Positions 3,022 through 6,505 of a DNA stretch of 40,354 nt are shown here, in pieces. Source of the DNA: an uncultured Pseudomonadota bacterium (lineage in GTDB: Bacteria; Myxococcota_A; UBA796; SXON01). Under the pieces are notes generated by a model, which made no database searches, was not told the origin of the DNA, and worked only from the letters and a program-made list of their open reading frames with translations. The stretch is taken from the NCBI GenBank assembly GCA_903844155.1, contig CAIMSU010000089.1:1-40354 (forward strand). Direction: 5' to 3'. Numbering within the stretch: position 1 is the first letter of the stretch; each line of letters starts with the position of its first letter. Both the position numbers and the translations under genes were made by a program.

Positions 3022-3032
3022 GAGGTGTGCTC

Positions 3033-3317
3033 ATGCCCACGAACCTATCCACCACTTCTCTCCCCGACGCCCCCGGCCGCGCCGTCTCGATCACCTACTG
3101 CACGAGCTGAGGCTACCTCCCGCGCGCCACCCGGGTGGTGGACGTGCTGCGGGAGGAGGTCGGAGTGGCTGCGACGCTGATCAAGGGACAAGGCGGTATT
3201 TTCGAAGTGCGGGTCGGCGACCGTGTCGTCGCGAAGAAGACCTTCGACGGCTTTCCGAGCGAGGATGAGATCGTCCTCGCGGTGGCTTCCTCGCTCGGCC
3301 CCCGGGCTGACGGTTAG
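3033..3317 (+). CDS. SelW/Rdx-family selenoprotein with an in-frame UGA (Sec) codon
   Basis: A small thioredoxin-fold redox protein of the Rdx (SelT/SelW/SelH) family, 94 residues. Reading from ATG 3033 through TGA 3108-3110 gives ITYCTSUGYLPRATRVVDVL, which is the family's CxxU redox motif (C23, U26) followed by the expected helix. The frame then stays open to TAG at 3315-3317, with a family-like strand and turn (GIFEVRVGDRVV, then FDGFPSEDEIV). A GAGG Shine-Dalgarno (3022-3025) lies 7 nt before ATG 3033. A hairpin just after the TGA fits a bacterial SECIS element. A caller that stops at TGA reports only a truncated 60-residue ORF from ATG 3135, which lacks the active site. The alternative, a nonsense mutation, is unlikely because TGA falls exactly at the Sec position. 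The substrate is unknown, and selA/selB/selC are not in the window. Confidence 0.88.
3113..3159 (+). promoter_or_regulatory. Candidate bacterial SECIS element (Sec insertion hairpin)
   Basis: The hairpin starts 5 nt after the in-frame TGA. The outer stem is CCTCCCGC (3116-3123) with GCGGGAGG (3149-3156), 8 bp and perfect. An upper stem CCAC (3127-3130) with GTGG (3138-3141) leaves a 7-nt apical loop, CCGGGTG, containing GGT, about 20 nt after the TGA. That distance and an exposed G/GU loop fit the known bacterial SECIS pattern bound by SelB. The pairing is seen directly; the function is inference. Confidence 0.7.
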
Positions 3318-3326
3318 TCCCGCTCG

Positions 3327-3692
3327 ATGGCCTGGACGCTCACGGTCGACACGTCCTGGCCGCCTCCGGACGCGGTGACGCGCCTGGCGCTGGACGTGGA
3401 CCCGCGCCGCCGCACGCTGCACCTCGGCCCGCAGGTCGTCGGCACGGGCTGCCTGGAGATCCAATCCGGGGCGATCGCCCGCAGCTTCTACGCCTGCGCG
3501 GAAGAGGATCTCGCCGCCGCTTCGGAGTGGCTCGCCGGCGATGAGGCCGGTGCGCTCCTGGACGCGATCGAAGCCGGGTTTCGCTGCGACCTGCTGTGGT
3601 CGGGCGACCCCGTGGTCACCTGGAGCGATTCGGCGTGGGAGGCAGGGGCCGCGCTGGTCGCAGGTGTGGGCGCGCGGATCGGCCCCGACTGA
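3327..3692 (+). CDS. Hypothetical protein downstream of the selenoprotein
   Basis: A 121-residue soluble protein with no signal peptide or membrane helix and no family I recognise. It starts 9 bp after the selenoprotein stop, so the two are probably co-transcribed. The Shine-Dalgarno before ATG 3327 is weak. The protein has four widely spaced cysteines, several Trp residues and alternating hydrophobic stretches (RRRTLHLGPQVVG, then CDLLWSGDPVVTWSD), suggesting a small alpha/beta fold. The gene ends 15 bp from the convergent exported-protein gene. Codon use matches the neighbours. Confidence 0.7.
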   Translation: MAWTLTVDTSWPPPDAVTRLALDVDPRRRTLHLGPQVVGTGCLEIQSGAIARSFYACAEEDLAAASEWLAGDEAGALLDAIEAGFRCDLLWSGDPVVTWSDSAWEAGAALVAGVGARIGPD

Positions 3693-4259: not shown

Positions 4260-4922
4260 TCAGGGACCGTTTTCGAACTGCTGGAGAACGTCGTCCCCCT
4301 GGTAGACCGTGATGAGGCGGTGCAGGATGGGCCCGAGCGTGGGGTCGCGGAAGGTTGCCAGCCACGAGGGGTCGGCCGCGAGGTCACGGAATGAAAATCC
4401 AGCTCGCAAGGCCGATGTGAGCTCCCGCTCAAAGGTGTCCGCCTCGTTCGCGCGCCGGGCGACGTCGGCGAGGCGAAAGTGGCCGGGCCAGCCATCCGGG
4501 GCGAGGCGGACGACGGTTTCGAACTCGCGCTTTGCGGCGTCGGCGTTGCCGCGGTTGAGCTCGATCTCGCCGCGGTCGTAGTGGGCCGCGACCATCGCGG
4601 GGTCTTCCGCGATCGCCCGGTCAAGGTTGGCGAGCGCGCTGGTCTCGTCGCCAGCGAGCCGCCACCCAAGCCCAAGTTCGTAGGCCAATTTTGCGTCGTC
4701 CACGGCGCGACCGGGGCCGCCGCCGAGTGTCCGTCGCCACCGATCCGCAAAGTCCTCCGCGGAGACCATGTTCGCGCGGGCACCGTCGGCCGAGTCGGCC
4801 GGGAGCTGGGCGCGGCGGGCGATCTCATCGGCGGCGGCCTGGGCTTGCTCGCTTCGGTAGTCGGGTGGCGGGATCTCGGCGCGGGCAACGGCAAGCCAGG
4901 AGAGCAGGAAGCACCCGGTCAT
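4260..4922 (-). CDS. Exported TPR protein
   Basis: A 220-residue protein with an N-terminal hydrophobic segment (MTGCFLLSWLAVARAE), so probably secreted to the periplasm. Residues about 75-160 form tetratricopeptide-like helical pairs (AYELGLGWRLAGDETSALA, then AHYDRGEIELNRGNADAAKR, then GHFRLADVARRANEADTF), a protein-binding scaffold. ATG 4922 overlaps the TGA of the preceding cytochrome gene as ATGA, which indicates translational coupling. The open frame continues upstream for more than 1 kb, but that part is a shadow of the cytochrome gene. It probably supports the UshA-like cytochrome, but no function is visible. Confidence 0.82.
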   Translation of the reverse strand: MTGCFLLSWLAVARAEIPPPDYRSEQAQAAADEIARRAQLPADSADGARANMVSAEDFADRWRRTLGGGPGRAVDDAKLAYELGLGWRLAGDETSALANLDRAIAEDPAMVAAHYDRGEIELNRGNADAAKREFETVVRLAPDGWPGHFRLADVARRANEADTFERELTSALRAGFSFRDLAADPSWLATFRDPTLGPILHRLITVYQGDDVLQQFENGP

Positions 4923-6505
4923 TGCTTGCCGCTCGGCGGCGTGACCACATGCACGCCCTGACCCGCCATCTGGTTCACGCAGGACACCCGGCGGTGGTAG
5001 GTTGCGTAGTCGAATTGCGGGGAATTTGCGGGGTCGTGGCAGGTGAGGCACGTCGCTTCGGTCACTGGCTGGCCTTTCTGGTTGTGCGGGTCCGCGATGT
5101 GCGCGGACATCGGGCCGTGGCAGTCCTCGCACTGCACCGCCTTCCAGGTTTGCATGTTCACGTCGTCCGTCGAGGCGTTTCCGCCGGGCTCGCCCCAGCC
5201 GGTGGAGTGGCAGGCAACGCATTCTGGGTTCTTGTTGCCGCCGCGGGGGATCAGCGCGAGCCAGGCCTTCGCGTGCGGCGTCTCTGCCCACGCCGCAAGG
5301 TAGTCGTCGTGGCAGCCGGTGCAGCCGCCAGCAGCGACGTACCGCAGCGGCGCGTTGACCTTGCTGCGCGCGTTCGCCGTGCCGACCAGGCTGTCGTCGA
5401 ACGCTTTCACGGCCTTGGCTGCCGCATCGTCGGGCGCCTCCAGGTCCGACCCGAGCGGGCGGTCGCGCACCAGCGCAAGGTTTCGGCCCGCGGCGTCCGG
5501 CGCCACGGCCGCCCACGCGTCCACCACCCGCTGTGCCTCCGCGGGCTTCGCGTTGCCTTCCTGGCGCGGCAGGCGCTCCATGGCCTCGTCCCAGGCCTCC
5601 CATTTGGCGCCCTCCGGGCCCGTCAAAAGCTCCGCCGGCCCCGGCGTCGTCCCGATGGCGAGGCGGACCACGCTGACAAAACGCCCCCGGTCCGGCGTCT
5701 CGATAACCGGCGCCCCGGACGTCACCCTGGGGGGATCGAGATCGCCGCCCCGCGTCGCCAGCACGAGCGCGAGCCCAGGGACGCCCTCGGCGATCCGGGT
5801 GTTTGTGGCCGTGTCGGCGTTGGAGAGGGCGACCCACGCGTCCGGGCTCGGCGAGACGGCGGCCATCGCCCGCTTCACGACGTCCACCACCCCAGCGTCC
5901 ACGGAGTGCCCCGGCATGGCGCCGCTCACGCCCACCACGCCGAGTCGCACGCCCCCGCGCTCGATCACGGTGGCGTGCGGGAGCTCGTCCACATTCGTCC
6001 CCACCGCGCGCTCCCACCCCTTTCCGTCTGCGGGGCGCAGGGCCAGATCCGTCGGCGAGGGGCACCAGACGTCCAGCCCGACCTCGACTCCGAGCGACAG
6101 CATCGTTTTTGCCCGCAGCTCCTGGTCGGCGACCTTCGCCCCTCGCGCGCCCTTCGTCAGCATGTCTCCGGCGTCCAGCACGATGACGGGGTCGCCCTCG
6201 GCGCGCAGCCGTTGGAGGTAGCGCTCCCGTCGCTCAAAGCCGCCGTAGGGGACTGTCGGGCAGCCGCACACGTCCAACTCCCCGCGTACTTCGCCGGTCC
6301 AGGCGATGGTGACGCGCTTTTCGGGCACGACCGGGCCTGGAGGGACGAGCTCCCCGTTCGGGCGCCGGGGCGCCAGCGTCGGGAGGGTGTTGGAGGACTG
6401 AGGGCTGGCCTGGCCGCTGCACCCCGCGCCGAAAGCCGCGGCAAGCAGCCACACGGCGGGCGTCGGCAGGCAGCGGATCGAGGCGAGTGCGCGCACCTCG
6501 TGCAT
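4919..6505 (-). CDS. UshA-like / tetraheme cytochrome c lipoprotein
   Basis: A 528-residue exported lipoprotein: the signal peptide ends in a lipobox with C29 (FGAGCSG). Residues about 63-360 resemble the UshA/5'-nucleotidase metallophosphoesterase fold, but with a CGC motif at C80-G-C82 followed by GGFERR. The C-terminal part has four CxxCH heme-binding motifs at about residues 395, 429, 459 and 486, as in the cytochrome c-554 fold. The whole matches the group I know as UshA-like (seleno)proteins, in which Sec can occupy the Cys motif; here the motif is Cys only. A redox role in the periplasm is likely, and the substrate is unknown. ATG 6505 starts the operon with the TPR and barrel-like genes. 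The opposite gene starts 109 bp away. Confidence 0.85.
   Translation of the reverse strand: MHEVRALASIRCLPTPAVWLLAAAFGAGCSGQASPQSSNTLPTLAPRRPNGELVPPGPVVPEKRVTIAWTGEVRGELDVCGCPTVPYGGFERRERYLQRLRAEGDPVIVLDAGDMLTKGARGAKVADQELRAKTMLSLGVEVGLDVWCPSPTDLALRPADGKGWERAVGTNVDELPHATVIERGGVRLGVVGVSGAMPGHSVDAGVVDVVKRAMAAVSPSPDAWVALSNADTATNTRIAEGVPGLALVLATRGGDLDPPRVTSGAPVIETPDRGRFVSVVRLAIGTTPGPAELLTGPEGAKWEAWDEAMERLPRQEGNAKPAEAQRVVDAWAAVAPDAAGRNLALVRDRPLGSDLEAPDDAAAKAVKAFDDSLVGTANARSKVNAPLRYVAAGGCTGCHDDYLAAWAETPHAKAWLALIPRGGNKNPECVACHSTGWGEPGGNASTDDVNMQTWKAVQCEDCHGPMSAHIADPHNQKGQPVTEATCLTCHDPANSPQFDYATYHRRVSCVNQMAGQGVHVVTPPSGKQ

Follow-up and report, generated by a model that had tools for sequence, protein, structure and literature searches.

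Bacterial SelW-like selenoproteins have been known since 2005-2006, from the Sargasso Sea data set (PMC1088965) and from bacterial genomes (PMC1794560), and reviews list them as Rdx proteins with a CxxU motif (PMC9312934; PMC13188914). In ocean metagenomes they are reported to be one of the two selenoprotein families with the highest abundance (PMC9312934), and according to the 2006 survey Cys homologues of SelW-like proteins are very rare or absent in organisms that use Sec (PMC1794560). NCBIfam already models the family (TIGR02174, NF041051), and the remark in the initial annotation of this locus that prokaryotic SelW-like selenoproteins are known agrees with the two original reports (PMC1088965; PMC1794560). 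Our literature search on the selenoproteomes of myxobacteria-like groups returned nothing. Here we describe a gene in a 40,354-nt stretch of DNA, hereafter the window, which almost certainly encodes a bacterial SelW-like (Rdx family) selenoprotein with Sec26 at an internal TGA. Direct support for this reading comes from family membership, the predicted fold, conservation of the TGA, covariation and synonymous constraint in the SECIS element, and a complete Sec machinery in the host genome. The features of the locus are as follows.

3022-3026, plus strand: Shine-Dalgarno sequence GAGGT, 6 nt before ATG 3033, with a homologous GGAG in same-genus loci
3033-3317, plus strand: selW/rdx-like gene for a predicted selenoprotein of 94 residues with Sec26 (Rdx and TIGR02174 matches, 42 TGA homologues, AF2 model)
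3108-3110, plus strand: TGA codon, predicted Sec of the CxxU motif C23-T-S-U26 (TGA in 42/42 homologues of the order)
3116-3156, plus strand: predicted bacterial SECIS, an 8-bp lower stem (3116-3123/3149-3156) plus apical hairpin (minimum free energy (MFE), synonymous recoding, pairing in the family)
3127-3141, plus strand: apical hairpin of the predicted SECIS, a 5-bp stem (3127-3131/3137-3141) with pentaloop CGGGT (3132-3136), the stem being kept in homologues
3315-3317, plus strand: TAG stop of the selW frame

Translation of 3033-3317 on the plus strand with TGA read as U gives the protein MPTNLSTTSLPDAPGRAVSITYCTSUGYLPRATRVVDVLREEVGVAATLIKGQGGIFEVRVGDRVVAKKTFDGFPSEDEIVLAVASSLGPRADG, followed by the stop. 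The initial annotation had proposed that reading through TGA 3108-3110 joins C23 and U26 to an Rdx body, and that a good Shine-Dalgarno sequence precedes ATG 3033; the translation reproduces the first, with the same coordinates and residues, and the GAGGT bears out the second. It had also pointed to a 60-residue remnant from an ATG at 3135, of which the length to the stop is right, but codon 3135-3137 is GTG (Val35) and not ATG. Relatives have M at the place homologous to our start codon (same-genus locus L022 reads GGAGTGCTC-ATG, the window copy GAGGTGTGCTC-ATG). Their N-termini are about 10-17 residues shorter, such that the N-terminal 10-17 residues of the window protein have no counterpart, which counts against the reading.

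Residues 18-84 match Pfam Rdx (PF10262) with E 1.2e-12 and 48.3 bits, above the gathering score of 22.6, and NCBIfam TIGR02174 (CXXU_selWTH) scores 43.6 bits against a cut-off of 34.2. By E-value the best NCBIfam match is NF041051 (SelTWH_Campy, SelT/SelW/SelH family (seleno)protein; 1.4e-18), yet with 66.9 bits, scored with Cys for Sec, against a cut-off of 88 the window protein lies outside that equivalog. The alignment with Rdx/SelW families that had been suggested as a check shows that both sides of the TGA match the Rdx and SelWTH models. An AlphaFold (AF2) model built on a 42-sequence alignment has a b-a-b-b-b-a topology with a mean pLDDT of 81, and places the CxxU motif (C23..U26) between strand 1 (E18-23) and the first helix (H29-42). 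Searched against the PDB with Foldseek, the model gave 22 matches at E <= 0.001, all of them Rdx/SelW-like or the relative MIEN1, and a sequence search found the same Rdx/SelW-like group. Matched entries include 2fa8, 2obk, 3dex, 2p0g and mouse SelW (2npb). The bacterial Rdx structures from Streptomyces (3dex), Agrobacterium (2fa8), Pseudomonas (2obk/2oka) and Vibrio (2p0g) share the fold, with TM-scores to the target of 0.79-0.87, and in Rdx proteins of known structure, mouse SelW included, the motif sits at the same position as in the window protein. In contrast, sequence identity is only 19-35%, and the bacterial Rdx structures found by sequence search carry CxxC where the window protein has CxxU.

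We sampled homologues from 63 genomes of the same order, of which 42 hold one Rdx gene in single copy. A family search that is independent of the window protein recovered the same 42 genes, and every match contains a single TGA. In the codon alignment this TGA occupies the catalytic position in 42/42; no Cys-form or TGA-free Rdx gene was found among the 42 Rdx genes of these 63 genomes. Together with the Rdx E-value (1.2e-12) and the TIGR02174 score above cut-off, this conservation indicates that the match is not due to chance. I20, Y22 and C23 are invariant upstream of the TGA in the 42 homologues, as are Y28, A32, L49, G52, K69, F74 and P75 after it. A lack of conservation of the upstream frame had been named beforehand as evidence that would overturn the proposal; instead, V-x-I-x-Y-C-x-x-U is kept.

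These data bear on two other readings of the locus. The gene could be an Rdx gene of the Cys type that was disrupted by a nonsense change, or by a sequencing or assembly error, from TGC/TGT to TGA, as the single in-frame stop and the many Cys members of the family, some in the same phylum, might suggest; however, the same TGA recurs in 42 independent assemblies of the order with no Cys or other stop at the codon, and both the body and the upstream frame are conserved. Alternatively, translation could begin at GTG 3135, leaving the upstream frame untranslated and yielding a product of 60 residues that lacks the active site. Such a start could be called by standard gene-finding software that ends genes at TGA, but I20, Y22 and C23 are invariant upstream of the TGA, and Shine-Dalgarno sequences precede both ATG 3033 and the homologous ATGs. 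Because the TGA and its flanking residues are conserved, we regard a pseudogene, a sequencing error and a start at GTG 3135 as excluded in practice, and hold the broken Cys gene to be extremely improbable.

Outside this set, four Cys homologues (L054-L057) carry a TGT or TGC codon at the TGA position; their source records are titled Cyanobacteriota, Obscuribacter or uncultured bacterium. Across 286 genomes of the phylum, Rdx matches comprise stop-free copies, mostly the highest-scoring, and lower-scoring TGA copies. Several of these genomes (e.g. G260, G221, G147 and G288) have a stop-free, Cys-type Rdx gene alongside one of the TGA type, so the two types probably represent distinct subfamilies, rather than one having recently replaced the other. 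Metagenome-assembled records titled Bifidobacterium breve (CALQBK020000010.1, L051) and Klebsiella pneumoniae (CAMASI010000005.1, L053) hold the same selW; they appear to correspond to genomes G032 and G023 of the order, respectively, and their titles look mislabelled.

The 50 nt from the TGA onwards fold as a hairpin in nearly all TGA homologues. Numbered from the T of TGA, nt 20-24 pair with nt 30-34 in its apical core, giving a 5-bp stem capped by a 5-nt loop. This pentaloop follows xG[G/U]xx in 42/42 sequences, its second base being G and its third G or T. The full apical stem is present in 37/42 homologues, compared with 7.3 +- 2.5 expected from the protein and none of 2000 simulations in which codons were redrawn synonymously from the same genes, a null that controls for protein sequence and codon bias; one non-standard pair in the five-pair stem of the remaining 5/42 sequences counts against the element. 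Within the window's own family the 8-bp lower stem retains 158/160 pairs (110.9 +- 4.9 expected), whereas in other families it is not kept (76/176 pairs, 70.9 expected). Both stems contain double changes, among them C-G to U-A at 13/45 and, at 22/32, G-C or A-U. At -28.1 kcal/mol, the MFE of the window copy is reached by 10/3000 synonymous recodings. A shuffle test on the SECIS alone is weak (z -1.8) because the region is GC-rich, which makes the synonymous-codon null the useful control.

The published bSECIS model specifies an apical loop of 3-9 nt, an upper stem of 4-16 bp, a G in the first two loop positions followed by G/U, a distance of 16-37 nt from the UGA and an MFE <= -7.5 (PMC13188914). 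The window hairpin falls within these limits: its loop has 5 nt with G in the second position, its apical stem has 5 bp, the loop lies 21 nt from the UGA, and the MFE is -28.1 kcal/mol. An Rfam scan of the 40,354-nt window gave no match. This predicted SECIS, which is absent from the initial annotation, completes the case for a selenoprotein. Selection on the element beyond the protein also argues against a broken Cys gene, and the location of codon 3135-3137 inside the apical hairpin against a start at GTG 3135, for which we see next to no chance.

The host genome (8.13 Mb, 95.6% complete) holds a full set of Sec genes: selA on contig C96; selB on C301, encoding a 610-aa protein with the SelB beta-barrel and C-terminal winged helices (SelB-wing_2/3); an ordinary selD on C317; a second selD on C341 (L012, G000:C341:140132-143103, 334-2508), encoding 724 aa fused behind an N-terminal pyridine-nucleotide-oxidoreductase-like domain; and a tRNA-Sec gene (selC, anticodon TCA) on C109. 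A tRNA search of the 40,354-nt window itself found none. The joint absence of selB and selC, the other observation said in advance to speak against the proposal, therefore did not occur. SelB is encoded (E <= 1e-60) in 35 of the 42 genomes that carry the TGA gene; the other seven include four with tRNA-Sec and full SelA, one with full SelA and one with a SelA fragment at a contig end, bringing to 41/42 those with SelB, tRNA-Sec or at least partial SelA. G009 (77% complete) has the TGA gene but none of SelB, tRNA-Sec and SelA was found in it, which counts against the link. Conversely, Rdx is missing from four genomes in which SelB, tRNA-Sec and SelA are all absent; two of these genomes are 97-98% complete. 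The resulting association between marker and gene (41/58 versus 1/5, Fisher p 0.039) is significant but modest.

Read-through of the UGA by a near-cognate tRNA, e.g. for Trp or Cys, would be compatible with the sequence alone. Yet tRNA-Sec, SelA, SelB and SelD are all present, the hairpin has bSECIS features, and TGA is a normal stop elsewhere, because the SelW homologues L040, L041 and L067 end in it; we thus consider near-cognate decoding very unlikely. On the favoured reading as a Sec-encoding gene, the ribosome would start at ATG 3033 and the SECIS hairpin just 3' of UGA 3108 would recruit SelB-GTP with Sec-tRNA-Sec. Insertion of selenocysteine at residue 26 would then yield a 94-residue thioredoxin-like (b-a-b-b-b-a) protein whose C-x-x-U redox motif lies in the loop that follows strand 1. 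By analogy with its family, the product is most likely a small cytosolic thiol/selenol oxidoreductase cycling between selenolate/thiol and selenenylsulfide, and family and motif together suggest redox activity. In the order, Rdx is kept only in the Sec form and an order-wide SECIS is strongly selected, which might reflect a lineage-specific role in which Cys cannot substitute, although we think this unlikely.

The gene order PP2C phosphatase, hutI (minus strand), selW (plus), DUF3996-like (minus) is kept in the genus, and the neighbours give no clue to the substrate of selW. A 121-aa ORF at 3327-3689 (plus strand), 9 bp after selW, was considered as an operon partner; because it has no family match and no other locus searched contains it, not even in the same genus, it says nothing about function. 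The starts of hutI (GTG 3021, minus strand) and selW (ATG 3033) stand back to back with 11 bp between them, so either the hutI start is wrong, in line with a TIGR01224 match from residue 33 onward only, or the promoters lie inside the opposite gene.

A codon-composition scan of the window for more read-through TGA genes picked up ordinary gene ends with a new start after them and antisense frames, but nothing else; its thresholds miss selW too, so another short gene of this kind is possible. The 528-aa protein at 4919-6505 (minus strand) resembles NCBIfam NF041198 ('UshA-like (seleno)protein PCGU') with E 1.2e-51, a score below the cut-off, and has multihaem cytochrome c motifs at its C-terminal end. 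Inspection by eye shows CGC and not TGA at the apparent PCGU motif, which suggests a Cys-type member of a different selenoprotein family.

Finally, the finding is correct and ordinary, in that both family and mechanism are known, and our understanding of selenocysteine coding is unchanged, because the 2006 survey had already noted the scarcity of Cys homologues of SelW-like proteins (PMC1794560). It adds one more uncultured bacterial group predicted to make a SelW-like selenoprotein, and flags a gene that annotation would otherwise miss or shorten; that default gene calling misses selW, as had been expected, is plausible. The 42-sequence set, with its TGA, SECIS and flanks, could train or test selenoprotein gene finders. 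Compared with known bacterial SelW-like selenoproteins (PF10262), the window copy differs in its short N-terminal extension and in its SECIS, which is specific to the order and has a GC-rich stem of 5 bp and a mostly CGGGY loop. Like them, it combines the Rdx family with C-x-x-U at the same place and a SECIS directly 3' of the UGA with a guanosine loop, and in both the Sec form is dominant in Sec-using organisms.
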